From: Agrococcus sp. Marseille-Q4369 | GTDB lineage: Bacteria; Actinomycetota; Actinomycetes; Actinomycetales; Microbacteriaceae | Reading direction: 5' to 3' | DNA: 64,000 nucleotides | Assembly: GCF_018308945.1 (NCBI RefSeq) | Contig: NZ_CP070501.1 | Location: 1,116,001 to 1,180,000 of the forward strand | Part shown: one piece after another, positions 32,597-60,705 of the stretch | Layout of the letters: each line of letters begins with the position of its first letter | Numbering within the stretch: position 1 is the first letter of the stretch | Program-made: the position numbers and the translations under genes | The notes under the pieces: generated by a model | What the model was told of the DNA's origin: nothing | The model's input: the letters and a program-made list of their open reading frames with translations, nothing else | Databases searched by the model: none

Positions 32597-33799
32597 GTGC
32601 GTCTATACGGTGAGGTGCTGAGGGTCCCGGGGCTCGCGCGCATCATGCTCGCGCAGCTCATCGCGCGCTTCCCGGCCGGCATGTACTCGCTCGGCATCCT
32701 CATGCACATGGAGCAGCAGCACGGCTCCTACACGGCAGCCGGTCTCGTGCTCGCGGCCTTCTCGGTCGGCATGGCGGCCGCCGGTCCGTTCGTCTCGCGC
32801 CTGATGAGCCGCTTCGGCACCGTCGGGGTGCTGCTGACGACCACCGTCGTCTCGATCGCGGCGCTCACGTCGATCGCGATCTTCGACCTGCCGCTCTGGG
32901 CGGATGTGCTCGCCGGCATCGTCGCTGGCGCCGCGATGCCGCCCGTCGTGCCGACGGTGCGCACGCTCTACCCGCGCATGGTGCAGCAGCGGCTGCTCGC
33001 GCCCCTCTTCTCGTTCGACGCGGCGCTGCAGGAGATCATCTGGGTCTTCGGCCCGGTGCTGCTGACGATGCTCGTCTCGTTCCTCGGCACCGGCACGGCG
33101 ATGCTCGTCACGATCGCGATCCAGCTGGTCGGCGGGCTCTTCTTCCTGCTCTCGCCGGAGGTGCGGCGCCTGCGCATCCCGCCGACGACCCGCAAGCTCG
33201 GCCGCGTGCTGCGCAAGCCCCCGGTGCTCCTGTCTGTGATCGTCTCGTCGATGTTCATCGGCGGCTTCGCGGCCGTGGAGGCGGGCGTGGTCGCGACGTT
33301 CGATCACGGCTCGCTCGAAGCGGGCATCGTGCTCGGCGTCTCGGCGCTCGGCTCGCTCGTCGGCGGCTTCGCGCTCGGAACGCGAGCGATCACGCCGTGG
33401 TCGGTCGCGATCCGGCTCGGGATCGTGCTGCTCGGCATGGCGATCGCGCTGCCGATGACCGATGTCGTCGGGCTCTCGATCGCCCTCTTCATCGCTGGCA
33501 TCGGCACCGCCCCCGCGCTCGCCGCCTTCTCGGCGATCGTCGCCGGCACCGTGAAGTTCGCCGACACCCCTGAGGCCTACGCCTGGATCGGCACCGGCCA
33601 GCTGCTCGGCGCCGCGCTCGGCTCGGCGATCGCGGGCGTCGCGATCGACGCGAACGGCGGCGTCGGCGGCGTCTGTGTCGCGGTCGTCATGGTCGCCATC
33701 GCGGCGGCGATCGCGGCGATCTTCCGCCGCCATCAGCCCGACCTGCGGCAGGGCATCGGCGAGCCGCCCGACACGGCACCGGTCGAGCTGCCCCGCTGA
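32597..33799 (+). CDS. Major facilitator superfamily transporter
   Basis: 400 residues, 12 predicted helices in two halves. It starts MRLYGEVLRVPGLARIMLAQLIARFPAGMYSLG and has the MFS loop SRLMSRFGTVGVLL between helices 2 and 3. The GTG start lies 6 bases after a TAGGCT box (leaderless). Substrate unknown. The last 153 bp (33647-33799, encoding the final helix and tail) recur with 4 mismatches at 34899-35051 beyond the DUF3800 gene, so this gene is the host of an insertion. Confidence 0.9.
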   Translation: MRLYGEVLRVPGLARIMLAQLIARFPAGMYSLGILMHMEQQHGSYTAAGLVLAAFSVGMAAAGPFVSRLMSRFGTVGVLLTTTVVSIAALTSIAIFDLPLWADVLAGIVAGAAMPPVVPTVRTLYPRMVQQRLLAPLFSFDAALQEIIWVFGPVLLTMLVSFLGTGTAMLVTIAIQLVGGLFFLLSPEVRRLRIPPTTRKLGRVLRKPPVLLSVIVSSMFIGGFAAVEAGVVATFDHGSLEAGIVLGVSALGSLVGGFALGTRAITPWSVAIRLGIVLLGMAIALPMTDVVGLSIALFIAGIGTAPALAAFSAIVAGTVKFADTPEAYAWIGTGQLLGAALGSAIAGVAIDANGGVGGVCVAVVMVAIAAAIAAIFRRHQPDLRQGIGEPPDTAPVELPR

Positions 33800-33823
33800 G
33801 CGAGGCACCACGCCGGTGACCGG

Positions 33824-34735
33824 TCACATCCCGGGCTGTCGACGTTTCTGGGCGCCAGCGCGGAGCTTCCGAAGCGCCGCGTCAGGGATGCTCGATCCGA
33901 GGAGCTGACCGTCCGGAGTCGGATGGAGCGGACGCTCGGAGCGGAAGACTTCCGAGTGGTTGAGGTCCGGCACCGACCGCTTCCACAGTCGAAGCTTGGA
34001 CTCGCGCGTGAATGAGCCGCGCACTGCGTCGACGGCCTTAGGTCCGGTCACCCAACGGTAGGGCGAGTCGCGGATCTGGAACTCGATGGCGCGCGTCACG
34101 CAGGCGGAGACCCAGTCGGCGAACTGGATGTTCGCGCTCAGGACGCTGTCGACGTGCATCGGGGGCTCGATGATGCGGCGCATCTCCGGATGACTGCTCG
34201 CGCGCCCGAGGATGTGTGCGTACATGTTCGGCACTCTCTCGGACCGCTGATTCTCATTGATCTGGTCGATCATGACCATGAGGTTTGAGCCGTCCTGCGA
34301 CTCCGAGTGCCTCGCTAGTCGGTTGAGCGTCTCTTGCATCGCAGCGGTCTCGCGCTGCGCGGTGTCCAAACGCGTCTGCGCAGGGGTGCCGATGGGCTTC
34401 TCGTCCGCATAGTAGAAGAGGCTTCCGCCCAAGGCGCGAAGCGTCCGAACCAGGCCGTTGAACACTCGGATCTGCTGCGGGAACTTGGCCATCGTGTCTG
34501 GCCTGAAGATCGAGGACCCCTTGCGCTCCCACTGGCCGGGATTGGCTGCGCGCTCGATCTCTGTCTTGAAGACGCGCCGCTTCTCCTCGGTGAAGGCAGT
34601 GCCGAACCGACGTGCGTTGGTCTCGGGGATGACGAAGCCTGCGTAACCGAACGCTGGACTCGTGTTGAAGCGGGCGTGGTCTCGTGCAACGAACGCACCG
34701 GGCTCACCGATCTCATCGATGTAGGCCAGCAGCAC
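33824..34735 (-). CDS. DUF3800 domain protein (insert cargo)
   Basis: About 303 residues. It begins LLAYIDEIGEPGAF, the conserved first-strand Asp-Glu motif of DUF3800, a family with an RNase-H-like fold and suspected nuclease role often found in mobile or defence contexts. Later it has FNGLVRTLRALGGSLFYYADE, VMIDQINENQRS and an Asp-rich region (IQFADWVSACVTRAIEFQ). The start is uncertain: GTG 34735 best fits the family; GTG 34750 and 34783 are alternatives and none has a clear ribosome site. GC is low for the window (58% at 34201-34260). It is flanked by the MFS 3'-end direct repeats. Confidence 0.8.
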   Translation of the reverse strand: MLLAYIDEIGEPGAFVARDHARFNTSPAFGYAGFVIPETNARRFGTAFTEEKRRVFKTEIERAANPGQWERKGSSIFRPDTMAKFPQQIRVFNGLVRTLRALGGSLFYYADEKPIGTPAQTRLDTAQRETAAMQETLNRLARHSESQDGSNLMVMIDQINENQRSERVPNMYAHILGRASSHPEMRRIIEPPMHVDSVLSANIQFADWVSACVTRAIEFQIRDSPYRWVTGPKAVDAVRGSFTRESKLRLWKRSVPDLNHSEVFRSERPLHPTPDGQLLGSSIPDAALRKLRAGAQKRRQPGM

Positions 34736-34769
34736 ACCGAGATTGTGCACCGAACCGCTGACGCAACGC

Positions 34770-34798
34770 AGAAACCCACGCACAGGGCGTGGGCTTCT
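34770..34798. promoter_or_regulatory. Hairpin upstream of the DUF3800 gene
   Basis: Arms AGAAACCCACGC and GCGTGGGCTTCT pair at 11 of 12 positions around a 5-base loop. It lies in or next to the 5' leader of the DUF3800 gene and overlaps the GTG at 34783. It may act in attenuation or as a boundary structure of the insert. Confidence 0.35.
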
Positions 34799-34895
34799 CG
34801 AATCGGCGCGCCGGAGACTTTCTCACTCCTCGCTACCGCCTTCAAGAATAGTCGCCCCGGCTTCGGGCGGCAATCGGCTGCGCTCCCGAGGGTGG

Positions 34896-35051
34896 ATGGA
34901 CGCGAACGGCGGCGTCGGCGGCGTCTGGGTCGCCGTCGTCATGGTCGCCATCGCGGCGTCGATCGCGGCGATCTTCCGCCGCCACCAGCCCGACCTGCGG
35001 CAGGGCATCGGCGAGCCGCCCGACACGGCACCGGTCGAGCTGCCCCGCTGA
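34896..35051 (+). pseudogene. 3'-end remnant of the MFS transporter gene
   Basis: Encodes MDANGGVGGVWVAVVMVAIA and on to the same DTAPVELPR stop as the MFS gene at 32597-33799. Over 153 bp (34899-35051 against 33647-33799) there are 4 mismatches. No promoter or 5' part exists. It marks the far edge of the DUF3800 insertion. Confidence 0.9.
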
Positions 35052-35118
35052 CCCGACCCCCCGCACTCTCCCCCGCGCGACGGACGACGCCGCGCACCCC
35101 GCCTGCGATGATCGACGC

Positions 35119-35943
35119 GTGCCCCATTCCCTCGAGCTCAACGACGGCAGCACGCTGCCCGCGCTCGGCTTCGGGCTCTACAAGGTGCCGCCGGCCGAGA
35201 CGGCCGACGTCGTCGCCGCGGGCCTCGCCGCCGGCTACCGGCTCATCGACGGGGCCGAGCTCTACGGCAACGAGCGCGAGCTCGGCGAGGCACTGCGGCG
35301 AGCGGATGCGTCGGGTCTCGACCGCGAAGACCTCACGGTCACGAGCAAGTTCTGGGGCGAGGCGTCGCAGGAGCCCGCCGCAGTGCGCGCCGCGTTCGAC
35401 GCGAGCGAGCGGGCGCTCGGCCGGATCGACGTCTACATGATCCACTGGCCCAGGCCGGCCCGCGACCGCTACGTCGACGTCTGGCGCACGCTCGTGGAGC
35501 TGCAGGCCGAGGGACGCGTGCGCACGATCGGCGTCAGCAACTTCACCGAGGAGCACCTCCGCCGCATCATCGGCGAGACGGGCGTCACCCCGGCGATCAA
35601 CCAGGTCGAGTCGCACCCGTGGCTGCCGCAGCGCGAGCTCCGTGAGGCGCACGCAGCGATGGGGATCGTCACCCAGGCGTGGAGTCCGCTCGGCCGCGCC
35701 CGGGTGCTCGAGGACCCGGCCATCGAGCGCATCGCCGCCGCGCACGGCGTGACGCCCGCGCAGGCGATCATCCGCTGGCACCTGCAGACCGGTGGTGCCC
35801 TCGTGCCGAAGTCGACGCATCCGCATCGCTTGCAGGAGAACCTCGACGTCGACGGCTTCAGCCTCAGCGACGCCGACCTCGCCGCGATCGCGGCGCTCGA
35901 GACCGGCGAGCGCACCGGCACGCACCCCGACGACCGCAACTAG
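35119..35943 (+). CDS. Aldo/keto reductase
   Basis: 274 residues, same family as the gene at 6198. Tetrad visible: Asp and Tyr in LIDGAELYGNE, Lys in VTSKFWG and His in MIHWPRP; GVSNF and VPKSTHPHRLQEN follow. The GTG start begins PHSLELNDGSTLPALGFGLYKV. Before the DUF3800 insertion it would have followed the MFS gene directly. Substrate unknown. Confidence 0.9.
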   Translation: MPHSLELNDGSTLPALGFGLYKVPPAETADVVAAGLAAGYRLIDGAELYGNERELGEALRRADASGLDREDLTVTSKFWGEASQEPAAVRAAFDASERALGRIDVYMIHWPRPARDRYVDVWRTLVELQAEGRVRTIGVSNFTEEHLRRIIGETGVTPAINQVESHPWLPQRELREAHAAMGIVTQAWSPLGRARVLEDPAIERIAAAHGVTPAQAIIRWHLQTGGALVPKSTHPHRLQENLDVDGFSLSDADLAAIAALETGERTGTHPDDRN

Positions 35944-35978
35944 CGACACGACACGACACGACACGACACGACACGAGA
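35944..35978. repeat. CGACA pentanucleotide tandem repeat
   Basis: Six perfect CGACA units (35944-35973) and one imperfect unit fill the 45-base gap between the aldo/keto reductase stop and the TetR ATG at 35989. Being outside the reading frames, changes in unit number would alter promoter or ribosome-site spacing. Confidence 0.85.
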
Positions 35979-35988
35979 CGCGACACCC

Positions 35989-36960: not shown

Positions 36961-37052
36961 CCCGTCGCTCGGCCCGCGCATCGGAAGCGCAGCCTGGAGA
37001 CTGCTCGCGCACCGTGCCAGAATGTCGGAGTACGCCGACATCGGAGGGACGA

Positions 37053-37918: not shown

Positions 37919-37998
37919 TCGCGCATCGAGACTCCAGACGCCCAACTCACGAGAAAGGTTGGGCTGTGCTTCTCGCGCCAGCGAAGCACGCTGGAAGC

Positions 37999-41735: not shown

Positions 41736-43058
41736 ATGAGCGCTCCCCTCTCCTTCGACGCTCCGGAGGTCACCGACGCCATCGCGGCCTGGATGCCCGA
41801 CGCCCGCTGGTACCCGCTGAAGGGCCAGGAGGCCGACGTCACCCTCGCGCACAGCTACGAGCTGGGCGACGCGGCGATCCTGCTCATGCGCGCCGGCGAC
41901 ACGCTGCTCCAGGTCCCCGTCGCGTGGCGCTCCGAGCCGGGCGCCGCCCCCATCGCGCAGCTCGGCGAGCGCTGGCTCGTCGACGCGTCCTCCGATCCGG
42001 ATGCGGTGCAGACCCTCATCGAGATCGCCGCCGGCACGAGGGCGGTCCCGGGCCTCGAAGGCGACGCGACGAAGCCGCCCGGGCCCGCGGGCGCGATCCG
42101 CGTCATCGGCGGCGAGCAGTCGAACACCTCCATCATCGGCGGCGACGGCAGCTGGATCGCGAAGGTGTTCCGCGTCGTCCACCCCGGCGACAACCCCGAC
42201 GTCGTCGTCACCGGGGCCCTCACGCGCGCCGGCTCCGAGCCCGTGCCGGCGCTCCTCGCGTCGATCCGCGCGACGTGGCCCGCCGGGGATGCGACCGTCA
42301 CCGGGCACCTGCTCGCGGTCTCCGAGTTCGTGAACGGCGCGGAGGACGCGTGGGAGCTCTACCGCCAGCACGCCCTCGCGACGCTCCGCGGCGAGCAGCA
42401 CGAAGCGCCCGACGCCCGCGCGCTCGGGGCGGCCGTCGCGACGGTGCACCGCGACCTCGCGGCGGCGCTCGGCACCGCCGAGGCGAGCGAGGCCGACTCG
42501 CACAGCTTCATCAGCGGCCTCGAGCAGCGGCTCGGCTGGGCGCGCGAGCAGGCGGCCGAGGCGCTCGCCGACCTCGACGCCGCGCTCGGCCGCGCCAAGG
42601 AGCAGCTGGGCGAGATCCGCTCGATTGGCGAGCTGCAGCACATCCACGGCGACCTGCACCTCGGGCAGGTGCTGCGCTCGAGCGACGGCGACTGGCTGCT
42701 GCTCGACTTCGAGGGTGAGCCGCTGCGCCCCATGCACGAGCGGTCGGTCCGCGAGCCGCGCCTGCGCGACGTCGTCGGCATGCTCCGCTCGTTCGACTAC
42801 GCCGCCGGCTCAGCGCAGCAGCAGCTGCCCGACGCCGACCCGGCGGTCGCCGACGACTGGGTGCAGCAGCGCCAGCAGGAGTTCCTGGCGGGATACGCGG
42901 ATGCTTCGGGTCCGGTCGACGAGCGCGACCCCGTCTTCCGCGCCCTCCTGCTCGACAAGGCGCTCTACGAGGTCGTCTACGAGGTGCGCAACCGCCCGGA
43001 TTGGCTGCAGGTGCCCCTCGAGGCAGTGAAGGCGCTCTTGGCTCCCTCCACTCGTTGA
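41736..43058 (+). CDS. Maltokinase-like aminosugar/maltose kinase
   Basis: 440 residues, phosphotransferase fold. Catalytic loop HIHGDLHLGQVLR and metal site LLLDFEGEPLRP; N-terminal cap region AWMPDARWYPLKGQ. These match actinobacterial maltokinases (Mak/Pep2) that make maltose-1-phosphate for the GlgE glucan pathway; no treS or glgE is visible here. Positions 42762-42982 recur with 17 mismatches at 49003-49223, past the Lsr2-galU-adhesin block. The stop codon lies in a terminator-like dyad. Confidence 0.85.
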   Translation: MSAPLSFDAPEVTDAIAAWMPDARWYPLKGQEADVTLAHSYELGDAAILLMRAGDTLLQVPVAWRSEPGAAPIAQLGERWLVDASSDPDAVQTLIEIAAGTRAVPGLEGDATKPPGPAGAIRVIGGEQSNTSIIGGDGSWIAKVFRVVHPGDNPDVVVTGALTRAGSEPVPALLASIRATWPAGDATVTGHLLAVSEFVNGAEDAWELYRQHALATLRGEQHEAPDARALGAAVATVHRDLAAALGTAEASEADSHSFISGLEQRLGWAREQAAEALADLDAALGRAKEQLGEIRSIGELQHIHGDLHLGQVLRSSDGDWLLLDFEGEPLRPMHERSVREPRLRDVVGMLRSFDYAAGSAQQQLPDADPAVADDWVQQRQQEFLAGYADASGPVDERDPVFRALLLDKALYEVVYEVRNRPDWLQVPLEAVKALLAPSTR

Positions 43059-43139: not shown

Positions 43140-43490
43140 TCAGCGGTTCTTGTACCGCTCCACGACATCCGCCGGAATGCGTCCGCGCGAGGCTACCTTC
43201 AGCCCCTGCGACTCCGCCCACTCGCGAATGGCGGCCGTATCGCTGCTGCTGCCGCCGCTGCTGCGCCGATTGCTGCTGCCCGAGGTGCGGCCGCGGCTGC
43301 GCCCGGAGACGCGGCGCGACGCGCGCACATAGCGCTCGAGCGTGCTCGAGAGCTCTTCGATGTTCTCGTTGCTGAGGTCGATCTCGTACTCAGCGCCGTC
43401 GAATGCGAATCGCACCGTGCGACCGGTGCCATCCTCGATGGGCTCGCCCGTGAAGTCGTCGACGAGCTTGGTGAAAGTCTGCTTTGCCAT
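43140..43490 (-). CDS. lsr2: Lsr2 nucleoid-associated xenogeneic silencer
   Basis: 116 residues. N-terminal dimerisation domain AKQTFTKLVDDFTGEPIEDG and RFAFDGAEYEIDLSNENIE; Ser/Arg/Gly linker; C-terminal DNA-binding domain IREWAESQGLKVASRGRIP with the AT-hook-like RGR. Lsr2 bridges and silences AT-rich foreign DNA. It lies inside an insert that also carries lower-GC genes, so it may be mobile cargo rather than the sole chromosomal copy. Confidence 0.95.
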   Translation of the reverse strand: MAKQTFTKLVDDFTGEPIEDGTGRTVRFAFDGAEYEIDLSNENIEELSSTLERYVRASRRVSGRSRGRTSGSSNRRSSGGSSSDTAAIREWAESQGLKVASRGRIPADVVERYKNR

Positions 43491-43576: not shown

Positions 43577-44479
43577 CTAAGCCGGCTGCTCGGAGAAGTG
43601 CTCCACATACTCGCGAAGCCATTCTCGAAGGCCCGGGCCGAGATCATCCCTTTCGCACGCGAGCATGACGTTCGCCTTGATGTAGTCGAGCCTGTCGCCC
43701 GTGTCATAGCGGCGGCCCCGGAAGATGACGCCGTGCGCCCCGCCCTCTGCATCGTCCTCCGCCATGGTGAGGAGCGCGTCCGTCAATTGGATCTCTCCGC
43801 CGCGACCGGGCGCCGTCTGCTCGAGCACCGGGAAGATCTCGGGCTTGAGCACATAGCGGCCGACGATCGCGAGATTCGAGGGCGCCGTGCCCGGCTCGGG
43901 CTTCTCGACGAGGCCGCGCACGCGCACGACGTCATCCTCCTCGGTCGCGTCGACGGTGGCGATGCCGTAGAGGTGCGCTTGCGCCGGGTCGACCTCCATG
44001 AGCGCGACGACGCACGTGTCGCGCTGGTCGTGCACCTGCAGCATGCGCTCGAGCAGGTGGTCGCGGGCGTCGATGATGTCGTCGCCGAGCAGCACCGCGA
44101 AAGAGTCGCCGTTGACGTGCGCCTTCGACCGCAGCACCGCGTGCCCGAGCCCGAGCGGGTCGCCCTGCCGCACGTAGTGCACGTTGGCGAGACCCGTGGA
44201 TTCGGCCACCTTCTGCAGGCGGTCGGCATCACCCTTGCGAGTGAGGATCTGCTCGAGCTCAGTAGCGCGATCGAAGTGGTTCTCGAGCGCATTCTTGTTC
44301 CGACCGGTGACGAAGAGCACATCAGGCAGGCCCGCCCGCACGGCTTCTTCGACGACGTACTGAATCGCCGGCTTGTCGACGACCGGCAACATCTCCTTCG
44401 GAAGCGCTTTCGTAGCCGGGAGGAATCGCGTGCCGAGTCCTGCCGCAGGAATGACAACCTTCGTGACGGAATGCCGCAT
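43577..44479 (-). CDS. galU: UTP-glucose-1-phosphate uridylyltransferase
   Basis: 300 residues; makes UDP-glucose. VVIPAAGLGTRFLPATKALPKE is the nucleotide-binding signature (AGxGTR), followed by PAIQYVVEEA, VLLGDDIID, GLVEKPEPG and GRYVLKPEIF. The ATG at 44479 gives full length. The gene has about 60% GC around 44221-44280, lower than the galE gene at 50118. UDP-glucose could feed galE and surface glycans. Confidence 0.95.
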   Translation of the reverse strand: MRHSVTKVVIPAAGLGTRFLPATKALPKEMLPVVDKPAIQYVVEEAVRAGLPDVLFVTGRNKNALENHFDRATELEQILTRKGDADRLQKVAESTGLANVHYVRQGDPLGLGHAVLRSKAHVNGDSFAVLLGDDIIDARDHLLERMLQVHDQRDTCVVALMEVDPAQAHLYGIATVDATEEDDVVRVRGLVEKPEPGTAPSNLAIVGRYVLKPEIFPVLEQTAPGRGGEIQLTDALLTMAEDDAEGGAHGVIFRGRRYDTGDRLDYIKANVMLACERDDLGPGLREWLREYVEHFSEQPA

Positions 44480-44565: not shown

Positions 44566-47500
44566 CTACGCCTCGCTGCGACGCCTGCCCGCTGCCAGCA
44601 CGAGCACCGCGCCGAGCAGCAGCAGCACGGCGGCGAGCGACAGCACGACCGCCTGCGCCTGCCCCAGCTCCGCGCCGGTCCGGGGCAGCTCGCGGGCGTC
44701 GATGCCGTTGACGAGCTCGATGGATGCCGTAGCGGCCCCGAGCGTCACGGTCGCCCCGGTCGTGCCGTCGAGCGGCACGACGGTCGTGTCGGCGAGCGAT
44801 GTCCACTCCGCACCGGTCCAGGTGGTGCCTGCCGGCAGCTCCCGCTCGTCCTCGACGATGCGGATCGGCACGCCGACCGGCACTTGCTCGAGCGTGACCG
44901 CTGCACCCGCGGCGACCTCGGTCTCGAGCGTGCGCTCCTCGCCCATGAGGTCGGTCCACGACGCGACGATCGGGAACGTCGTCCCCTCCGGCACGTCGCT
45001 CGCGCCAGAGCCCTCGAGCTCCTTCGAGACCGCGAGCGAGCCGACCTCGGCGATCGCCGTGTTCGTCAGGAGCACGGCCGAGTCGGTCGCGGCACCGATC
45101 GTGACGACGGCGACCGCCGCCTCGCCGTGCTCGACGTCGTCACCGCTCCAGCGAGGCGCGTCCCATCGGAACGCCGGCGTCGAAGCCGGCATGGCCTCGC
45201 TGAGGGTCACCTCGGTGCCGTAGGGCAGCTCGCCGCCGAACGGCGTCGGGGTGCCGTCGGTCGCAACGTCGAGCTCGCACTGCTCGGTGCCGTACGCGGT
45301 GGTCCACGTCGCCATCACCGTCACCGACGCGGGCGCGTCGGCGTGCCCGAGCGCGATGCCCTCGAGCTGCTTGGTGATGGTGAAGGTGCCCGGCGCCCAG
45401 GTGGCCTCGTTCACGACCGTCACGAGCGTCGAGTCGCCCTGCAGGTCGGAGACGACCACGGTCGCGCTGCCGTCACCGGCATCGGTCACGTCCTCGCCGC
45501 TGATCACGATCGAGCCCCAGTCGACGGTCGGCAGCTCCGGCCGCTCCCCCTCGGTCACCGTCACGACGGTGCCCGCAGGCAGCTCCACGCCCAGCGGGGT
45601 CGGCTCGCTCGCCGAGATCTCCAGCTCGCGCGAGCGCTCGACCCCATCCGCGTCGACCCAGCTCGCGGTGATCGGGAACGTCGCACCCGCAGGCACGTCC
45701 TCCGCCGCCTCGCCCGCGATGCCCTTGACGAAGCTCAGCCCCGCCGTCGACGTCGCCGCGTGGTTCTCCAGCGACACGAGCGCGTCAGCATCGCGGCCGA
45801 TCGTCACGATCGCCGACGAGCCCGACACCTCCACCCCATCGCCCGACCACACCGGCGCACCCCACGCGATGCTCGAGCCGTCCACCAGCGGAGCCTCCGT
45901 CAGCGACACCTCCGTGCCGATCAGCAGCGCATGCCCCAGCGGCACCGGCGTGCCATCCGTCGGCACCTCCAGCTCCACCGAACCCGGCACACCCTCCTGC
46001 ACCCACGACGCCGTCACCGACACCGACTCCGGCACCGCAGCCGAACCCGCCTGCGCTCCGGTGACCAGCTTGGACAGCGAGAAGGTGCCGACCGTGCGCT
46101 CGACGTGGTTGGTCACGGTGATGGTCGACGGCTCGCTCGAGTGCCCGGGCGTGATGAGCACGCCGTTCGGCTCGATGCTCGGCTCACCCCACGTGAAGGC
46201 GTCGTCGTCGACGAGCGGCGACTCCGAGAGGGTCACGGTCGCACCGATCGGGAGGTCGTCGAGCACGACAGGCTCTCCGGCCACGAGCGTGAACTCGCGA
46301 TCCGGCTGCGCCGGGAAGCCGGCGCCGAGGGCCGAGACGTCGATCGACGCCGTCATCGCGTACTCACGCTCCGCGTCCACGAGACCCGCCGCGCCGCCCT
46401 CGACCGCCTTCACGACCTCGAGCGAGCCGAGCAGCGCGGTGTTCGTCAGCGTCACGCCGATGTTCAGCGCGGGCGTGATGGTCGCGATGGCAGTCGTGCC
46501 GTCGGCGCTGACCTGGAGCCCCTCGGACGGCTCGAAGCGAGGCGCGCCGAACGTGACGCCGGGCACCGACGGGAAGCGGGGCTCCGAGAGCTCCATGGTC
46601 CAGCCGCGGCCGCGCGGGTTGGGGCCGCTCACGGGCTCGCCGTCGAGCGGCACTCGCAGGTCGTACTCGGCCTGCACGGTGCCGCGCGGGTCGCGCTCGC
46701 GCACGTGCACGGTGAACGCCGCGCCCTCGGGCACGAACGCCGCGCCCGGGGTGGTCTCGAGCGCCTTGTCGATCGAGACGGAGCCGCGCGTGACGCCCTG
46801 GCCCGTGCCGCTGCCGCTCAGGCGCTGCTCGACCGTGCGGGTGAAGCGCAGGCCCTCGACGCGTGCGTCGTTGCCGTACTCGGTGCCGGGCGCATCCATG
46901 CCCCCGCTCCTCGTGCAGGTCGTGTAGCGCACGACGTACTGGTACTCGTGGCTGAAGCCCTCGACCGCCTGGCCGTCGACTCCCGGCAGCGTCGGGCGCG
47001 GCACGGTGATGGTGATGGTCGAGCCGTCGAGCGTCGCGGTCGCGCTCTCGCTCAGGTCGACGGTGCGGAGCCCGCCGTCCTGGATCTGGTCGCGCGCCTC
47101 GACGCGGAGGCCGAGCCGGTCGGCGACGTCCCCGCCCGAGCCGACGCACACCTCGTGATCGTCCGAGAGGACGTCGGTGATCGTGAGGTCCGTTTCGACC
47201 TCGGCGATCTCCTGGCCCGGCAGGGTGATCTGCCAGCCGAGGGTGGTCTGCGGCAGGTACGTGACGCCGTCGAGCTCGACGTTCGAGCCGTTGATCTGGC
47301 CGTTCTTGCCGACCGTGCGGCTCGGCACGGTCGCGGTCGCGCCATCCGTGACGCCGGCGATCGTCGCCCTGTTGCCGAACTCGGTGCCGGATGCCGGCAG
47401 GCCGTCCGTCGTCGCGCACGTCTGGTAGCGGATGACGTACATGTAGTCGTTCCCCTGGAAGGCGAAGTCGCCTTGCGTGGCGAGCTCGACCTTGAACTCC

Positions 47501-48795
47501 TCGGCTTCTGCCTGTGTCGTCGTCAGGCGCAGCTCGCTGGCCGGGATGGTGCGCTGGCGGCTGCCGCTCGGCCCGTATCGCTCGAGCACCGTGAGGCCTC
47601 GCACCTCGGGCGCGCCGTCGGCGTTCGTGCACAGCGCGTGGAGACCTTCGAGCGCCTCGCTGAGCGTGACGGTGTCGCGGCCGACGAGGTGATCGCCCGC
47701 GACGGTCACGGCCCACTGGATGACGCCGTTCCGGTCGGCGCGACCGAGCACCGAGCCGGTCTTGTCGACAAGCGCGGTGATGGCCCAGTCCTGGCGCACG
47801 CCGATGCCGCCGGACGACTCGCCCCAGACGTCGACGATCGCCTCGTTGGTGTAGACGGTGCCCTGCGCGTCGATCTCGCGGTCGGGGGTGCACGTGTCGT
47901 AGCGGACGCGGTAGGTCACGTTCGCGTCGAAGCCGCCCTCGGGCGCCGTCAGCACGATCGAGAAGGCGTCGCCTGCCTCGACTCCGTCGGCCGTCGAGCC
48001 GATCGATGTCACGTTGACGACGGTCGAGCCGCGCACGGTCTCGATGCGGAGGTTGGAGGGCGTGCAGAGCTCATGGTTGTCGCTCACGCGCTCGCGGATC
48101 GTCACGACCTCGTGCGCTGCGAGCCGGCTGCCGGGCAGCTCGATCGTCCAGCGCATCGACCACTTGTCGGCGTTGAGCGCGCCGGTCTTCGTCCAGCCCG
48201 TGGGCAGCGTGATGCCGTCGTCGATGCCCCCGATGCCAGGCAGGTCGACGCTCGTCAGCTTCCCGTTGAGGTCGAGCACGACGGACTCCTCGGTCGTCGC
48301 CTCGACTGCCTCGATCTGGAGCTCGAACGTGCCGAACACGAGCTCGGGGAACTCCACGACCGCGTCGGTGAGCGTGCAGGTGAGCGTGTCCGTCGCCGGG
48401 TCGGTGAGGCAGTTGCCCCAGACGGTTCCGTCGGCCCCGCTCAGCTGGAACGGCAGCGCCGCGGGGAAGCCGAGCTCGGCAGGCAGCCCAACCGTGAAGA
48501 CGTCGCCCGCGTGCGGGTCGGCATCGGTGGCGTCCCACGTGCCGCTGAGCGTCATCGCCTCGCCGATCGTCGCCGGCTCACCGTCGACCGTCGTGATCGT
48601 GACGTCGCGCACCACGATGTTCGGGTTCTGCGCTGCGTGCGCCGTCGTCGGCGCGGCGATCAGCGTCGCCACGGTGATGAGCGCGGCGAGGCCTGCCGCA
48701 GCGGCGCGGCGCATTGCGGCACGGGGTCCGGAGGTCAGTAGCGACAGGGCAGCAGAACCTTGCGGCTCGGGCGGACGGCGCGGTGTGCGGTGCAT
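44566..48795 (-). CDS. Large LPxTG-like wall-anchored adhesin with repeated DUF5979-type domains
   Basis: 1409 residues. Signal peptide near residues 28-55 (AGLAALITVATLIAAPTTAHA). The N-terminal third has adhesin-like domains with paired cysteines (WGNCLTD, LTCTLTD; VRYDTCTP; IRYQTCATT; VRYTTCTRS). The C-terminal half has seven or so DUF5979-like repeats, each opening like SLSKLVTG or TITKQLEG and ending VTLSEAP. The sorting signal ELPRTG, a membrane helix and GRRRSEA end it. It is probably a sortase substrate for adhesion. ATG 48795 was chosen; an inner Met before RRAAAAGLAAL is possible. Confidence 0.85.
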   Translation of the reverse strand: MHRTPRRPPEPQGSAALSLLTSGPRAAMRRAAAAGLAALITVATLIAAPTTAHAAQNPNIVVRDVTITTVDGEPATIGEAMTLSGTWDATDADPHAGDVFTVGLPAELGFPAALPFQLSGADGTVWGNCLTDPATDTLTCTLTDAVVEFPELVFGTFELQIEAVEATTEESVVLDLNGKLTSVDLPGIGGIDDGITLPTGWTKTGALNADKWSMRWTIELPGSRLAAHEVVTIRERVSDNHELCTPSNLRIETVRGSTVVNVTSIGSTADGVEAGDAFSIVLTAPEGGFDANVTYRVRYDTCTPDREIDAQGTVYTNEAIVDVWGESSGGIGVRQDWAITALVDKTGSVLGRADRNGVIQWAVTVAGDHLVGRDTVTLSEALEGLHALCTNADGAPEVRGLTVLERYGPSGSRQRTIPASELRLTTTQAEAEEFKVELATQGDFAFQGNDYMYVIRYQTCATTDGLPASGTEFGNRATIAGVTDGATATVPSRTVGKNGQINGSNVELDGVTYLPQTTLGWQITLPGQEIAEVETDLTITDVLSDDHEVCVGSGGDVADRLGLRVEARDQIQDGGLRTVDLSESATATLDGSTITITVPRPTLPGVDGQAVEGFSHEYQYVVRYTTCTRSGGMDAPGTEYGNDARVEGLRFTRTVEQRLSGSGTGQGVTRGSVSIDKALETTPGAAFVPEGAAFTVHVRERDPRGTVQAEYDLRVPLDGEPVSGPNPRGRGWTMELSEPRFPSVPGVTFGAPRFEPSEGLQVSADGTTAIATITPALNIGVTLTNTALLGSLEVVKAVEGGAAGLVDAEREYAMTASIDVSALGAGFPAQPDREFTLVAGEPVVLDDLPIGATVTLSESPLVDDDAFTWGEPSIEPNGVLITPGHSSEPSTITVTNHVERTVGTFSLSKLVTGAQAGSAAVPESVSVTASWVQEGVPGSVELEVPTDGTPVPLGHALLIGTEVSLTEAPLVDGSSIAWGAPVWSGDGVEVSGSSAIVTIGRDADALVSLENHAATSTAGLSFVKGIAGEAAEDVPAGATFPITASWVDADGVERSRELEISASEPTPLGVELPAGTVVTVTEGERPELPTVDWGSIVISGEDVTDAGDGSATVVVSDLQGDSTLVTVVNEATWAPGTFTITKQLEGIALGHADAPASVTVMATWTTAYGTEQCELDVATDGTPTPFGGELPYGTEVTLSEAMPASTPAFRWDAPRWSGDDVEHGEAAVAVVTIGAATDSAVLLTNTAIAEVGSLAVSKELEGSGASDVPEGTTFPIVASWTDLMGEERTLETEVAAGAAVTLEQVPVGVPIRIVEDERELPAGTTWTGAEWTSLADTTVVPLDGTTGATVTLGAATASIELVNGIDARELPRTGAELGQAQAVVLSLAAVLLLLGAVLVLAAGRRRSEA

Positions 48796-48966: not shown

Positions 48967-49222
48967 CCGGAACCTGCGTTGGACGAACGCTCCGCCGTCG
49001 CACTGCGCGACGTCGTCGGCATGCTCCGGTCGTTCGACTACGCCGCCGGCTCCGCGCAGCAGGAGCTGCCCGACGCCGACCCGGCGGTCGCCGACGAGTG
49101 GGTGCGGCAGCGACAGCGGGAGTTCCTGGCGGGATACGCCGATGCGTCGAACCTGGTCGACGAGCACGACCCCGTCTTCCGCGCGCTATTGCTCGACAAG
49201 GCGCTCTACGAGGTCGTCTACG
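48967..49222 (+). pseudogene. 3'-end remnant of a maltokinase gene
   Basis: Encodes EPALDERSAVALRDVVGMLR and on through DPVFRALLLDKALYEVVYDV, parallel to residues about 338-415 of the maltokinase at 41736-43058. The best block, 49003-49223 against 42762-42982, has 17 mismatches in 221 bp, mostly silent or conservative. The catalytic loop and the true C-terminus are missing. It is a diverged allele fragment bounding the Lsr2-galU-adhesin insert. Confidence 0.88.
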
Positions 49223-49339
49223 ATGTCGTCGCCAGTCACCGGCGTCCGCGCCGCGATCGCGGGTGGAGCGGCCGTGCTGCTGTACCTGCAGCTCCGACGC
49301 ATCTGGCGCCGACGACGGCGACGGCCGCCCGCAGAGTGA
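49223..49339 (+). CDS. Possible 38-residue membrane peptide
   Basis: MSSPVTGVRAAIAGGAAVLL, then a Tyr/Leu stretch and an Arg-rich tail (RIWRRRRRRPPAE). It has one membrane helix with positive-inside tail. It starts at the end of the maltokinase remnant with GAGG about 9 bases upstream. It may be a real small gene once following maltokinase or a chance frame. Confidence 0.3.
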   Translation: MSSPVTGVRAAIAGGAAVLLYLQLRRIWRRRRRRPPAE

Positions 49340-49352
49340 CGGGACCGCCAGG

Positions 49353-52174: not shown

Positions 52175-52201
52175 GCTGACCTCCTTCGACGGTCGATCAT
52201 C

Positions 52202-54835: not shown

Positions 54836-55017
54836 CGCGGACGCCCGTCAGCCGGCGTTGGGATCGAGCGCGTTCGCCCCGTACCGACTGAAGTCACGAT
54901 CGCTCAGCCCGTCGACCTTGTGGCTCTGCAGCCCCGTGTCTAGGCGCGCTCGTCTCGGTACGAAGCCGCAGCCAGGAGAGGCGTGCACAAAGGCGTACGC
55001 ATTCGCGCACGCATCGG

Positions 55018-55023
55018 TATGAT
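55018..55023 (+). promoter_or_regulatory. -10 box of the Phd/RelE operon
   Basis: TATGAT ends 5 bases before the antitoxin ATG at 55029, implying a leaderless transcript. No convincing -35 box was seen. Confidence 0.45.
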
Positions 55024-55028
55024 TAAGC

Positions 55029-55660: not shown

Positions 55661-55682
55661 CGAGCGATGAGATCCTGGGTTG

Positions 55683-58600
55683 GTGACCCCCGCGGAATCT
55701 GACATTGCCGCATCGACGGATCGCGACCTCTCGACCAACGATGCTGTGGCCGACGATGCCCCGGCCACGAGCGTCGACCCGTGGATCCTCGAGGCCGAGC
55801 GCAGCGCATCCGCACCCCGGTTCCGCCCGCCCGCGCTCGGTCCGGTACCGAAGGGGCCGGTCTACCTGCTGGGACTGCTCGCGGCCCTGCGTGCAGCCGG
55901 GCTCGTGCTCGTCGCCGAGGCGATCGCGCGCGGCATCGGCGCGCTCGCGGCGGGCGACCTCGCGGCCGAGACCACGCGGCTCATCGTCGTGCTCGGCATC
56001 GCCGGCGCGCTGCTGCGCGCGGGCGCCGAGTGGGCGACGTCGGTCGTCGCGCGGCGCATCGCGACGTCGGTGAAGCAGCGCATCCGCGGGCGGCTGTGGC
56101 GGCAGATCGCGGCGGGCGACGCCACGGGCGGCGGCACCGCCGTGCTCGCCGCCGACGGGCTCGACGACCTCGACGACTACTACGTGCAGTCGCTGCCGGC
56201 GACGATCGCGGCAGCCGTCGTGCCGCTGCTCGTCGGCGTGCGCGTGCTCGGCGCCGACTGGCTGAGCGCCGTCATCATCGTCGTGACGATCCCGCTCATC
56301 CCCTTCTTCATGATCCTCATCGGCCACCACACCCAGCAGCGCACCGACGAGGCGCTCACGGCGCTCACCCGCCTCGCCGACCACCTCGCCGAGCTCGCGC
56401 GCGGCCTGCCGGTGCTCGTCGGCCTCGGCCGCGTCGACGAGCAGGCGAAGGCGCTCGAGCAGCTGCAGGGCCGCTACCGCGAGCGCACGCAAGAGACGCT
56501 CCGCTGGGCTTTCCTCTCGGCGCTCGCGCTCGAGCTCGTCGCGACCATCTCGGTCGCGATCGTCGCCGTCTTCCTCGGCTTGCGGCTCCTCAACGGCACC
56601 ATGGAGCTCGAGCCCGCCCTCGTCGCGCTCATCCTCGCCCCCGAGGCGTACGCGGCGCTGCGGCAGGTGGGCACCGCCTTCCACGCCTCGCAGGACGGCC
56701 TCTCGGCGCTCGACCGCTCGCGGGAGATCCTCGAACGGCCCGCGCCCGCCGACGTGCGTGCCGCATCCGACTCCGGCCCCATCCGCCTCGAGTCGCTCTC
56801 GGTGCAGTACGCCGGCCGCGACGCCCCGACCCTCGCGGGCATCAGCGCCGAGCTCACCGGCATCGTGTCCATCGCGGGACCCTCCGGCGCCGGCAAGTCG
56901 ACCCTCCTCGGCGCGCTCGCGGGCGCGCTGCCCGCCGACGCCGTCGTCAGCGGCCGCGTGCACGGCGTGGGGGCGGATGCGGTGGGCTGGGCCCCGCAAG
57001 CACCTCGCGCGTTCGCCCGCTCGCCCCGCGCCGAGCTCGCGCTCTACGGCGCCGATCCGCTCGCCGCGCTCGACGAGCTGGGGCTGGGTCACGTCGCCGA
57101 CGCGGCCGTCGCGGAGCTCAGCCCCGGCGAGCAACGGCGCCTCGCCGTCGCGCGGGCGCTCGCGCGAGTCGATGCCGGAGCCCGACTGCTCGTGCTCGAC
57201 GAGCCGACCGCGCACCTCGACCGCGCCTCGGCCGAGCGGGTGCGCGCGGCGATCCTGCGACGCGCCGACCGCGCCGTCGTGGTGCTCGCGAGCCATGAGC
57301 CCGAGACGACGGCGCTCGCGACGATGACCGTGCCGGTCGGCGCCTCTCCGCTGGCTGTCCCTCCGCTCGCTGAGGAGCGGGCGGCCGCCCTCCCGCTGGC
57401 TGAGGAGCGCGCAGCCGCAGGCCGCGTGCGTCTCGAAGCCATTGCTGCCGCGGACGGTCTCGATACGCCCAGCGAGAAGCGTGGGCCGCGCCTCACCATC
57501 CGCTCCCTCATCCGCCCGCACTTCGCATCGTGGGCCGGCTCGATCGCGATGGCGGTCATCGCCGTCTCGATGGGTCTCGCGCTCACGGCCGTCTCGGGCT
57601 GGCTCATCGTGCGGGCGAGCATCGAGGAGCACATCATGATGCTGCTGCTCGCGATCGTGGGCGTGCGCGCGTTCGGCATCTTCCGCTCGGTCGGCCGCTA
57701 CGCCGAGCGCCTCCTGACGCACGACGCCGCCTTCAAGGTCGTCGACCTGCTGCGCGTGCGGCTCTGGCGGTCGATCGCGGCGCGCGGCGCGGGCTCCCGG
57801 CGGCTGCTCGAGGGCGGCGCGCCGCTCGACTACCTCGTGACGCTCGCCGACGAGCTGCGCGACCAGCTGCCGCGCGTGCTGCCTCCCATCGCGGTCGGCG
57901 TGCTCGTGATCGCCGGCACCGGCGTGACGACGGCCTTCACCGCGCCGCAGCTCACGTGGATCGTCGTGGCGACGCTCGCGATCGCGACGACCGTGGCGTC
58001 GGCGCTCGCCATCTGGTCCGAGCGCGGCGCTGCCGCCGCTCGCGTCGGCGCCAAGTCGCGGATCGTGCGCGGCACCGCTGCGCTCGCCTCCGCCACCCCG
58101 GACTTGCGCGGCAACGGCGTCGAGGGCGCGGCGCTCGCGCAGCTCGACGACGCGAGCGCCGCGCTCTCGACCGCCGAGCGGCGCGGCGCGTGGGCCGCGG
58201 GCCTCGGCTCGGCCGTCGTCACCGCCGCGCTGGCGGCGCTCGCGTGCCTCGTGCCCGTGCTGGCTCCGACGTTGACGGCCGAAGCCGCATCCGTCATCGC
58301 CCTGCTCACGCTCGCGCTGCTCGAGCCGCTCGGCGACCTCGTCGCCGCCGCGCACCGCGTGCCGGCGCTGCGCGCCGCGCTCGCGCGACTCGCGCCCGTG
58401 CTTCGGCCCGCGCCGCAGCCGGAGTGGGGCGACGCCGAGCCGCCTTCGCCCATCGCCGCGGTCGAGCTCGACGAGGTGAGCGTGCGCTACCCCGGCATGT
58501 CGCACCCCGCCGTCGCCGACGTCTCGGGCCGCGCGGAGCGGGGCCGCTGGCTCGTGCTCGACGGCCCCTCGGGCTCGGGCAAGTCGACGCTGCTCTCGGC

Positions 58601-59270
58601 GATCATGGGTGCGCTGCCGGTGGAGCGCGGCGCCGTGCGCGCCGCTGCCACCGCCACCGCCTCCGCCACCGCCTCCGCCACCGCCTCCCCCGCCGCGCCC
58701 GCCACCGTCTCCCCCACCGCCTCCGCCTCCCCCACCGCAGATGTAGGGCGAGTCGCTGACATGGCGGACGCTTCGCAGCGACACGCCCTATACGCGGCTG
58801 CGAGCGCGGCGGGCGGCGTGCCGCTCACCGAGCTCGACGAGCGCGCGTGGCGCTCGCGCGTCAGCTGGTGCCCGCAGGACGCTTACGTCTTCGACTCGAC
58901 GCTCCGCGGCAACCTGCTGCTCGCCCGCACGCGCGATGATGCGCCCGACGAGGCCGCGATGCGCGCGGCGCTCGAGCAGGCCGGGCTCACGCGGCTTGTC
59001 GACTCGCTCGGCGACGGCCTCGACACGCGCGTCGGCGCGGGCGGCTCGGCGCTCTCGGGCGGCGAGCGCCAGCGGCTCGCGGTCGCCCGGGCGCTGCTGA
59101 CCCGCGCGGACGTCATCCTGCTCGACGAGCCGACCGCCCACCTCGACGCTCCGACGGCCGCGGCGATGATGGCCGACGTGCGCGAGGCGACCGCCGATCG
59201 CGTCGTGGTGCTCGTCTCGCACCGCCACGACGACCGCTCCCCGGTCGACGCGGTCGTCACGCTCGCGTGA
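55683..59270 (+). CDS. cydDC: Fused CydDC ABC exporter for cytochrome bd assembly
   Basis: 1195 residues combining CydD and CydC, which export thiols needed to assemble cytochrome bd. First half: six helices (YYVQSLPATIAAAVVPLL), Walker A GPSGAGKSTLL near 400, LSPGEQRRLAVARAL and LLVLDEPTAHLD. Second half: WLIVRASIEEHIMML, Walker A GPSGSGKSTLL near 961, LSGGERQRLAVARALL and VILLDEPTAHLD. Between halves lies a repeat-derived linker (57361-57420), and after the second Walker A an Ala/Thr/Ser insert (58641-58790). GTG 55683 was taken as start; TTG 55680 is possible. The last 101 bp are partly duplicated at 60605. Confidence 0.93.
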   Translation: MTPAESDIAASTDRDLSTNDAVADDAPATSVDPWILEAERSASAPRFRPPALGPVPKGPVYLLGLLAALRAAGLVLVAEAIARGIGALAAGDLAAETTRLIVVLGIAGALLRAGAEWATSVVARRIATSVKQRIRGRLWRQIAAGDATGGGTAVLAADGLDDLDDYYVQSLPATIAAAVVPLLVGVRVLGADWLSAVIIVVTIPLIPFFMILIGHHTQQRTDEALTALTRLADHLAELARGLPVLVGLGRVDEQAKALEQLQGRYRERTQETLRWAFLSALALELVATISVAIVAVFLGLRLLNGTMELEPALVALILAPEAYAALRQVGTAFHASQDGLSALDRSREILERPAPADVRAASDSGPIRLESLSVQYAGRDAPTLAGISAELTGIVSIAGPSGAGKSTLLGALAGALPADAVVSGRVHGVGADAVGWAPQAPRAFARSPRAELALYGADPLAALDELGLGHVADAAVAELSPGEQRRLAVARALARVDAGARLLVLDEPTAHLDRASAERVRAAILRRADRAVVVLASHEPETTALATMTVPVGASPLAVPPLAEERAAALPLAEERAAAGRVRLEAIAAADGLDTPSEKRGPRLTIRSLIRPHFASWAGSIAMAVIAVSMGLALTAVSGWLIVRASIEEHIMMLLLAIVGVRAFGIFRSVGRYAERLLTHDAAFKVVDLLRVRLWRSIAARGAGSRRLLEGGAPLDYLVTLADELRDQLPRVLPPIAVGVLVIAGTGVTTAFTAPQLTWIVVATLAIATTVASALAIWSERGAAAARVGAKSRIVRGTAALASATPDLRGNGVEGAALAQLDDASAALSTAERRGAWAAGLGSAVVTAALAALACLVPVLAPTLTAEAASVIALLTLALLEPLGDLVAAAHRVPALRAALARLAPVLRPAPQPEWGDAEPPSPIAAVELDEVSVRYPGMSHPAVADVSGRAERGRWLVLDGPSGSGKSTLLSAIMGALPVERGAVRAAATATASATASATASPAAPATVSPTASASPTADVGRVADMADASQRHALYAAASAAGGVPLTELDERAWRSRVSWCPQDAYVFDSTLRGNLLLARTRDDAPDEAAMRAALEQAGLTRLVDSLGDGLDTRVGAGGSALSGGERQRLAVARALLTRADVILLDEPTAHLDAPTAAAMMADVREATADRVVVLVSHRHDDRSPVDAVVTLA
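57361..57420. repeat. Two 30-bp tandem units read as the CydD-CydC linker
   Basis: Units at 57361 and 57391 share CGCT(C/G)GCTGAGGAGCG and encode PPLAEERAAA and LPLAEERAAA. A CGTCTCGAAGCC tail follows. The pattern resembles intergenic REP-like elements of high-GC Microbacteriaceae (compare TTCGACACGCTCAGCC at 1229-1244), apparently captured as coding linker. Confidence 0.5.
58641..58790. repeat. Low-complexity tract plus hairpin inside the second CydDC ATPase domain
   Basis: 58641-58740 is built of GCCACCGCCTCC-like units encoding (A/T/S/P)n. It is followed by an inverted repeat: TAGGGCG-AG-TCGCTG (58744-58758) against CAGCGA-CA-CGCCCTA (58776-58790). The segment sits between Walker A and the Q-loop (WCPQDAYVF), where the family has no such insert. 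Confidence 0.65.
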
Positions 59271-59295
59271 AGCGTCGCCAGCGCGACGGGGTGCC

Positions 59296-59970
59296 TCAGA
59301 AGGGACGCAATCCGAACGCGTCAGCTACCGCCTGCAACTCGGGATCCTCCAGTCGGATCGGCTGGCGCTCCCGCTCCGCAATCGCAGTACCGTCGAAGAT
59401 GGCGAAGCACTCTCCGCCGGCGATCCTCGACTCGTAGCGGATGCCGCCGTACAGCGGGCCTTCGTCGTCACTTGCGCCATAGGCCCACGCGGCAATGAGC
59501 CGCGTCACTCGACGGTCGCGCCCGCGCACAGTGCCGAGGTCGAGATCAGGCACGTCGAGGGCAGCCAGCTCTGTCGCGAGCTCGCGCTGCAGCGCCTGAT
59601 GGGTCCTGATGGCATCCGCGTCGACGAACGGAAGCGGGTCGATCAGCTCGAACCTCACGATCGAGCGCTGTGCGCGCCAGTCTCCCGGGACTCCGCCGAC
59701 AACCATGAAGCTCGCGTCCTCGCGCTGCATCCTGGCGAGGATGCCGGTGGAGGGCCTGAACCTCGCGAGCGTCTCTTCGAAGCAGGTTCGCAGTTCGGTC
59801 GATGCGTAGAGGACTCCGCCGCCGGGCACGTCGAATCGATTGCCGCTTGACGAGCTCAACGCGTCGATGGGATCGAGCCTCGAGAACCTGAGAGGGTCGG
59901 CGGACCGCCCGATCCTGACGAGCGCGCGGCTGGCGACTTCGACGAGCGCCGGCGCTGAGGGATCAGCCAC
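59296..59970 (-). CDS. RES-domain NAD+-degrading toxin
   Basis: 224 residues. LVRIGRSADPLRFSRLDPID, then GNRFDVPGGGVLYASTELRT and CFEETLARFRP hold the Arg-Glu-Ser residues that name the RES fold; IRYESRIAGGECFAIFD follows. RES toxins hydrolyse or phosphorylyse NAD+. The GTG start lies 8 bases inside the antitoxin's end. Located between cydDC and its 3' remnant, opposite strand. Confidence 0.87.
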   Translation of the reverse strand: MADPSAPALVEVASRALVRIGRSADPLRFSRLDPIDALSSSSGNRFDVPGGGVLYASTELRTCFEETLARFRPSTGILARMQREDASFMVVGGVPGDWRAQRSIVRFELIDPLPFVDADAIRTHQALQRELATELAALDVPDLDLGTVRGRDRRVTRLIAAWAYGASDDEGPLYGGIRYESRIAGGECFAIFDGTAIAERERQPIRLEDPELQAVADAFGLRPF

Positions 59971-60331
59971 CCTGCACGAAGGCTCGGGCTGCCGCGATGG
60001 CGTCGCGCGACCGATCGTCCGCAATGGCCTCGGCAGGCGACAGGTCGTCGAGCTGCGGGTTCATGCCCATGAACCACGCGCGCACGGTCGCCGGCGCCTC
60101 GACCTCCGCGACGACCTGCCAGACGGCGTAGGCGGCGAGAAGTCGACGCTCTGGGGCGAGCTGCGGCTTCGACGTGCCCCTCGCCCAGCGATCGACGCTG
60201 CTCGGGTCAGCGCCGACGGTGATTGCCAGCAATTGCCGCCCGAGGTGCTCCGCGAGGAACCCCGCCGCCTCCTGCGCCGTGACAGCTGCCGCTCGAGCCG
60301 CCGTCGACCGGTGCGTGGCCTTGATGTTCAT
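59963..60331 (-). CDS. Xre/MbcA/ParS-like antitoxin of the RES pair
   Basis: 122 residues. HTH-like EHLGRQLLAITVGADPSSVD and RWARGTSKPQL, then a C-terminal toxin-binding region AWFMGMNPQLDDLSPAEAIA ending ARAFVQGG, the usual MbcA/ParS terminus that inserts into the RES active site. Overlaps the toxin gene by 8 bases. Confidence 0.85.
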   Translation of the reverse strand: MNIKATHRSTAARAAAVTAQEAAGFLAEHLGRQLLAITVGADPSSVDRWARGTSKPQLAPERRLLAAYAVWQVVAEVEAPATVRAWFMGMNPQLDDLSPAEAIADDRSRDAIAAARAFVQGG

Positions 60332-60604
60332 CCTGACCCCCTCGTCGTCGTTCCCTCAGTCTACGTCTCTTCTGCGCGCTCGGTGCGCGTTTTTTGCCGC
60401 TATGAACGTCAACGCTGTTCGCGCGATGCAACTGCGCCGGACAACGTGCCGCGATACCGAGGTACCGAATTGTCACCTGCCGTCGCTCCGAGCGGCACAT
60501 CGGTACTACCCAAGGGGATGGGTGGTACCAATCTGTCGCATGACGCGCCCGTCAAGCGACCATTCGGCGCCACCCTGCCGAGCGCAGCCGCCCTAGCGCA
60601 TCCG
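60332..60604. other. Intergenic between RES-Xre operon and cydC remnant
   Basis: Contains a hairpin with arms CGCGC/GCGCG followed by TTTTTT (about 60378-60401, plus strand), a plausible terminator or attenuator. It also holds a dyad GGTACTACCC (60502-60511) / GGGTGGTACC (60520-60529), 9 of 10 paired, with another GGTACC at about 60461. The dyads may be Xre operators or recombination boundary structure. No gene was found. Confidence 0.45.
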
Positions 60605-60705
60605 TGGCCGATGTGCGCGAGGCGACCGCCGATCGCCTGGTCGTGCTCGTCTCGCACCGCCATGACGACCGCACCTCCGACCACACGGCGCTGCGCCTGC
60701 GCTGA
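60605..60705 (+). pseudogene. 3'-end remnant of a cydC gene
   Basis: Encodes VADVREATADRLVVLVSHRH, then DDRTSDHTALRLR and stop, in register with the last 33 residues of CydDC at 59170-59270. The first 68 bp have 5 mismatches; the final 11 codons diverge but end at the same distance. It is an allele fragment stranded past the RES-Xre insert. Confidence 0.85.

Follow-up and report, generated by a model that had tools for sequence, protein, structure and literature searches.

A 64-kb window of the single 2,737,735-base contig of Agrococcus sp. Marseille-Q4369 (G000) contains three places at which part of a gene occurs twice in direct orientation with opposite-strand genes between the copies: an MFS transporter gene (locus 1), a maltokinase-like gene (locus 2) and the gene for a fused cydDC ABC transporter (locus 3). 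The window was compared with itself and with 23 Agrococcus relatives (24 genomes with G000), among them A. baldri (G001, G002), A. lahaulensis (G010), A. pavilionensis (G011), A. sediminis (G013), A. terreus (G023), and the strains sp. KRD186 (G015), sp. HG114 (G017) and sp. Marseille-P2731 (G021). Pfam searches covered ten window proteins from the three loci. The names cydDC, Xre and NYN/LabA-like, and the roles in end joining and DNA uptake referred to below, are presumed ones, in part taken over from the first-pass annotation of this window.

Self-comparison of the window revealed direct repeats of 157 bp with 97% identity at locus 1 (33643-33799 and 34895-35051; E-value 1e-69), 224 bp with 92% identity at locus 2 (42762-42985 and 49003-49226; 1e-88) and 84 bp with 87% identity at locus 3 (59170-59253 and 60605-60688; 7e-22). 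These were the sole pairs of at least 50 bp and at least 76% identity lying no more than 15 kb apart and, given these E-values, they are not due to chance. Weaker repeats are also listed elsewhere in the window, and looser settings add short or tandem matches, which were left out of the case counts. The copies differ at 5/157 positions at locus 1, at 18/224 at locus 2 and at 6 in the first 70 columns at locus 3, close to the earlier counts of 4/153 (which follows from our 5/157), 17/221 and 5 of the first 68. The first-pass annotation had described an in-frame copy of the host gene's 3' end at all three loci. The repeats at loci 1 and 3 are indeed genuine gene 3' ends, with frame and stop codon retained; the one at locus 2 is internal and lacks the end of the gene. 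At each locus the insert is bordered by a second, partial copy of its anchor gene. The features of loci 1 and 3 are as follows (window coordinates).

32597..33799, plus strand: MFS transporter gene, intact, the host gene of locus 1 (Pfam MFS_1; match in 22/23 relatives)
33643..33799, plus strand: 3' end of the MFS gene, repeated further down (97% over 157 bp)
33824..34783, minus strand: cargo of locus 1, DUF3800 protein (Pfam PF12686)
34895..35051, plus strand: 3' remnant of the MFS gene, the resident allele, frame kept as far as the stop codon (repeat; flank compared with A. pavilionensis)
35119..35943, plus strand: aldo/keto reductase gene, ancestral right neighbour of the MFS gene (Pfam PF00248; synteny in A. 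pavilionensis)
55680..59270, plus strand: fused cydDC ABC transporter gene (name from the first reading), intact, the host gene of locus 3 (Pfam ABC_tran, ABC_membrane)
59170..59270, plus strand: 3' end of cydC, repeated further down (87% over the first 84 bp)
59296..59970, minus strand: cargo of locus 3, RES-domain protein (Pfam PF08808)
59963..60331, minus strand: cargo of locus 3, Xre-like partner (label from the first reading; no Pfam family at E 0.001)
60605..60705, plus strand: 3' remnant of cydC, the resident allele, frame kept as far as the stop codon (repeat; flank compared with A. pavilionensis)

The cargo at both loci is of restricted distribution among the relatives. The DUF3800 gene is found in 2/24 genomes, G000 and A. 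lahaulensis, in the latter at the same site and split into two frames. A. pavilionensis presents the empty site, in which 72 bp separate the MFS gene from the aldo/keto reductase gene behind it. The 51 bp preceding its reductase gene are 96% identical to the flank after the G000 MFS remnant; the flank after the full G000 MFS gene has no match in A. pavilionensis. In A. lahaulensis the DUF3800 gene stands at the MFS site with no MFS stub, as would be expected of a donor. The gap behind the MFS gene is shorter than 500 bp in 8/16 relatives; a protein search for an MFS stub in this gap was negative in all 16, and at the DNA level no more than weak, scattered matches of 20-61 bp turned up. In A. 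lahaulensis (stretch L116) the interval between the split DUF3800 gene and the reductase gene holds, by eye, an apparent C-terminal end of another ORF, perhaps the stub of a different gene.

At locus 3 the RES protein has only one distant match among the 23 relatives (34%, in G012), and its Xre-like partner has a 98% identical copy at the cydDC locus of A. lahaulensis. A. pavilionensis is again the empty site, with cydC, about 0.2 kb and then the next conserved gene. The flank after the G000 cydC remnant aligns with it over 223 bp (77%), and that after the full cydC gene gives no match. The insertion, stub included, is common to G000 and A. lahaulensis, where the stub carries TAG. The gene adjoining cydC is the RES gene in G000 and a different ORF in A. 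lahaulensis, so that the cargo has turned over. Over the last 32 columns of the cydC tail the two stubs agree at 28 positions and the two full genes at 24, as against 15 and 14 for full gene and stub of the same genome; the G000 and A. lahaulensis stubs match A. pavilionensis at 23 and 26. A search of 11 relatives for a second cydDC 3' end found one only in A. lahaulensis, which has the insertion; weaker matches to inner parts of cydDC occur in G001, G010 and G015.

At both loci the sequence downstream of the A. pavilionensis gene is found behind the remnant but not behind the full gene, and this evidence from the flanks marks the remnants as the resident gene ends with their old surroundings. 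Relatives lacking the cargo, which the earlier work had proposed to look for, therefore exist for the MFS and cydDC loci in the form of A. pavilionensis. When the uninserted allele is set against remnant and full gene end, as had also been proposed, the flank picks out the remnant, and the bases within the gene make no distinction. Decayed tandem paralogues standing without cargo, the finding that would have spoken for ordinary duplication, did not appear: the protein search finds none in the 16 MFS gaps, and among 11 relatives the only second cydDC end is that of A. lahaulensis.

The cydDC region has some further peculiarities. Within the CydC part, 58630-58800 encodes an Ala/Thr/Ser linker of low complexity that contains 12-bp repeats; an inverted-repeat-like sequence comes after it in frame, and this region is poorly matched in several relatives. 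Repeated motifs around GCAAGAGCGTGCACA follow the cydC remnant or gene (window 60706-60900; stretches L092, 6224-6450, and L093, 4844-4988), and in A. lahaulensis and A. pavilionensis they form units spaced at 84 bp. The cydDC gene of G004 (L097, 11224-12525) matches in three pieces, in a stretch with several direct repeats of 67-370 bp. A cydC fragment in sp. HG114, considered as a stub in a genome otherwise devoid of cydDC, was rejected since it is a contig end. Dating of the two cydC alleles from identity within the repeat gave no answer.

Loci 1 and 3 are probably what one-sided homologous insertion has left behind. The DNA that came in, with another Agrococcus as its probable source, would have carried the 3' part of the same gene and, behind it, the cargo. 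On the left it would have recombined homologously through the shared gene, and its right end would have been joined within the resident copy of that gene with no extended homology, leaving a full hybrid gene, the cargo and the resident 3' stub with its original flank. The left join is homologous at both loci, the full gene being unbroken, and the right join is non-homologous and lies in resident DNA, since the remnant starts inside the gene and continues into the ancestral flank. The model of one-sided homology put forward in the first-pass annotation is thus borne out at these two loci by the A. pavilionensis flank behind the remnant. The product could have been formed in two ways: a linear fragment underwent homology-facilitated illegitimate recombination (HFIR), or a fragment was trimmed, recircularised and then integrated by a single crossover. 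The two routes yield the same final map, and a circle entering by single crossover fits as an alternative; on this second route the stub would begin with donor sequence. Where the crossover fell, which genome was the donor, how its DNA entered and how it was joined, perhaps by Ku end joining, are matters of inference.

Locus 2 is organised differently, and its features are these.

41736..43058, plus strand: maltokinase-like gene, intact, the host gene of locus 2 (Pfam Mak_N_cap, APH)
42762..42985, plus strand: internal maltokinase segment, repeated (92% over 224 bp)
43140..43490, minus strand: Lsr2, an ordinary neighbour and not cargo (Pfam; synteny)
43577..44479, minus strand: galU-like nucleotidyltransferase, an ordinary neighbour and not cargo (Pfam NTP_transferase; synteny)
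44566..48795, minus strand: adhesin-like surface protein with DUF5979 repeats (Pfam)
49003..49226, plus strand: internal maltokinase fragment, not reaching the stop codon of the gene (repeat alignment)
49227..49340, plus strand: small membrane-type ORF truncated at the junction, 3' part only (homologue in A. pavilionensis longer)

The fragment corresponds to about codons 343-417 of 440 and continues into other sequence. Lsr2 and galU had been taken for cargo, but both are ordinary neighbours in the relatives: Lsr2 is found downstream of maltokinase, on the opposite strand and in the same fetched stretch, in 16/17 relatives (in the remaining one, A. pavilionensis, it is 11 kb away), and no more than about 2 kb separate galU from Lsr2 in 9/17. 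Only the adhesin is peculiar to G000; it has no match in the 23 relatives and is the sole gene of locus 2 that they are without. The single layout claimed for all three loci is therefore confined to loci 1 and 3. In A. pavilionensis the longer homologue of the truncated ORF is situated about 45 kb downstream of maltokinase, past Lsr2-galU, and the distance from maltokinase to cydDC is about 52 kb, as compared with 12.6 kb in G000. Since the fragment is joined to an ORF that far off, locus 2 also needs a deletion, and an insertion plus a deletion of tens of kb ending inside the maltokinase fragment would produce the observed order. The alternative for this locus, in which the fragment served as filler DNA in sealing a large deletion and is not the left-over of an insertion, draws on the internal position of the fragment, its junction with the distant ORF and the shortened maltokinase-cydDC interval. 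Against it, 18/224 differences from the local gene are too many for a fresh local copy, and the adjoining adhesin is missing from the relatives. We give filler DNA somewhat less than an even chance; insertion followed by deletion, and deletion with filler DNA, both fit, and we make no firm choice between them.

Comparable arrangements were found in other genomes. A mirrored case, at a gene 5' end, occurs in sp. KRD186, where the strain's own upstream genes are followed by a 537-bp segment spanning the start of maltokinase (88.6% identical to the full copy). Immediately adjoining this segment are the last 189 bp of the gene normally upstream of maltokinase; about 2.1 kb of other sequence and the full maltokinase gene come next. 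The 189-bp piece is 78% identical to the strain's own copy and 88% identical, over 180 bp, to A. baldri G001, in which about 50 bp separate maltokinase from its upstream gene; the sequences meeting at the sp. KRD186 join have no more than about 3 bp in common. Sliding identity between the maltokinase genes of sp. KRD186 and A. baldri, used for telling donor from resident, gave no separation. This strain was the only one of 16 relatives with a strong maltokinase fragment, weak matches to inner parts being seen in G004 and sp. HG114. The MFS gap of G004 contains a further mirrored 5' case, a 59-bp stub (88%) of the start of the reductase gene with upstream DNA. In A. pavilionensis an NYN/LabA-like gene has an altered tail, and a decayed 3' stub lies behind it, with 0.9 kb of other sequence in between. 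In G000 (L148) a second whole copy of this gene lies 9.5 kb downstream, preceded by pieces of two upstream genes; as a mosaic it was rejected as a clean example. The sequence inserted behind the NYN/LabA-like gene differs between G000 (L148, 5038-15663) and A. pavilionensis (L227, 2384-3962), with ORFs which we take to be IS-like and methylase-like in the former and a short ORF in the latter.

Frequency was estimated from 20-kb stretches amounting to 800 kb of G000, 400 kb of sp. KRD186 and 400 kb of G004 (1.6 Mb from three genomes). These gave one clear case in G000, the mosaic L148, and one that is possible only in sp. KRD186 (L209, two pieces of one protein beside masked letters); no further case was recognised in the 400 kb of G004. 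A 76-bp repeat in L190 was read as intergenic and L211 as a tandem repeat, and neither was counted. Six direct and five inverted hits in G004, which are unannotated, were judged from first letters and spacing to be dispersed or within genes, and two inverted G000 hits were left out of the count. The window is richer in cases than the samples, but it was picked because it looked so. The suggestion of a frequent route finds no support, with one clear further case in the sequence sampled.

Several observations weigh against one-sided insertion. The bases within the genes do not decide which copy is resident. With A. pavilionensis the full MFS gene agrees at 147/157 positions and the stub at 146/157, that is, equally well (148/157 and 147/157 with A. 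lahaulensis), and in the last 32 cydC columns the G000 full gene and stub both score 23 (the A. lahaulensis full gene 20); it is therefore the flanks alone that show the resident copy. Over the first 70 cydC columns the G000 full gene agrees with the stubs at 64 and 67 positions and with A. pavilionensis at 62, and this closeness to the stubs hints at a crossover inside the repeat or at later gene conversion. At locus 1 some 40 bp (34855-34894) resemble, by eye, neither side. No donor genome was found. The MFS gap exceeds 400 bp in 9/16 relatives, none of which has an MFS stub and one of which has a reductase stub, so most inserted gaps are without a stub; the event is not a frequent one. ComEC is present in 23/24 genomes, yet also in 10/14 control genomes, E. 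coli among them, and therefore says little about competence. In favour of the model, Ku occurs in 21/24 genomes, including G000, and among the 14 controls only in Bacillus subtilis, so that end joining is possible.

A tandem duplication of the gene end within one genome, later split by the cargo and followed by drift of the copies, would account for the small divergence at locus 1, where just 5/157 positions differ and the changes lie on both sides. It is nevertheless unlikely: relatives without the cargo have no second copy, full gene and stub of the cydC tail are each nearer to their A. lahaulensis counterpart than to each other, and the extra piece of the upstream gene in sp. KRD186 is nearer to another species than to the strain's own copy. 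Site-specific integration at gene 3' ends, by an element whose own copy restored the gene and whose integrase was later lost, fits the layout of loci 1 and 3 and the end of homology at the stop codon, but is very improbable in view of the absence of a common attachment core (three unrelated host genes with repeats of 84 to 224 bp and unrelated starts), the mirrored cases at 5' ends, the G015 insert that starts with a piece of a neighbouring chromosomal gene, and the distance of the nearest integrase. Five Phage_integrase hits were obtained in G000, the nearest 293 kb from the window, and the single Resolvase hit is more than 1 Mb away. The earlier statement that neither integrase nor transposase is present is upheld for integrases; for transposases it extends to the ten locus proteins searched with Pfam, none of which is one, no search aimed at transposases having been made.

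One-sided homologous insertion has precedents. HFIR is known from S. pneumoniae, A. baylyi and P. stutzeri, and from conjugation in E. coli (PMC3240628). Like loci 1 and 3, these events combine homology at one end, an illegitimate join at the other and small foreign inserts; laboratory events generally involve a recipient deletion of about 1 kb and mostly 3-10 bp of microhomology (PMC3240628), whereas in Agrococcus the end of the resident gene is retained and the join in sp. KRD186 shares at most about 3 bp. In the E. coli system as reported there, 56/60 Lac- clones yielded a PCR product indicating that the homologous gene had been partly duplicated, and the duplications, 109-950 bp in 14 sequenced clones, were attributed to recircularisation and single crossover (PMC3240628). 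Those lengths compare with 84-537 bp for the window repeats and the sp. KRD186 fragment, although the E. coli case is one of laboratory plasmid conjugation with cutting enzymes and the Agrococcus case natural and unobserved (PMC3240628).

Among type VI secretion system (T6SS) effectors of V. cholerae, a module anchored in a shared region shifts the old 3' end downstream, much as here; an HFIR-like process is proposed for this sequential displacement, with orphan Rhs 3' regions cited (PMC5361080). There one effector gene is replaced by another, whereas the transport and metabolic genes of Agrococcus are kept whole (PMC5361080). T6SS effector swapping in P. aeruginosa, for which HFIR is also proposed, likewise involves a shared gene, vgrG, with the breakpoint at its 3' end, but effector genes are replaced and the accessible part of that paper describes no gene-end stub (PMC11751169). 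Illegitimate, partly homology-assisted recombination has likewise been invoked for small variable segments in E. coli, S. aureus and S. pyogenes, again with no gene-end stub described in the portion at hand (PMC2884548). No literature linking Agrococcus with illegitimate recombination was found. The mechanism is thus already published and not new in principle, and the model of the first-pass annotation is right for two loci and half right for the third.

The value of the Agrococcus loci lies in the empty sites, in one event common to two species and in the mirrored cases. A stub together with an uninserted relative makes the direction of gene gain readable without an integrase, and shows that genes of metabolism and transport can receive small accessory genes next to them through a neighbour gene held in common. 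Counting stubs across bacteria could show whether they are more numerous in Ku-bearing lineages. It is a long shot that Ku end joining and DNA uptake give Agrococcus a standing means of one-sided capture, by which accessory genes of close relatives would be placed beside working core genes, at either end and without breaking them; if so, the stubs would constitute a directional record of each event, with the resident allele set against the incoming one.

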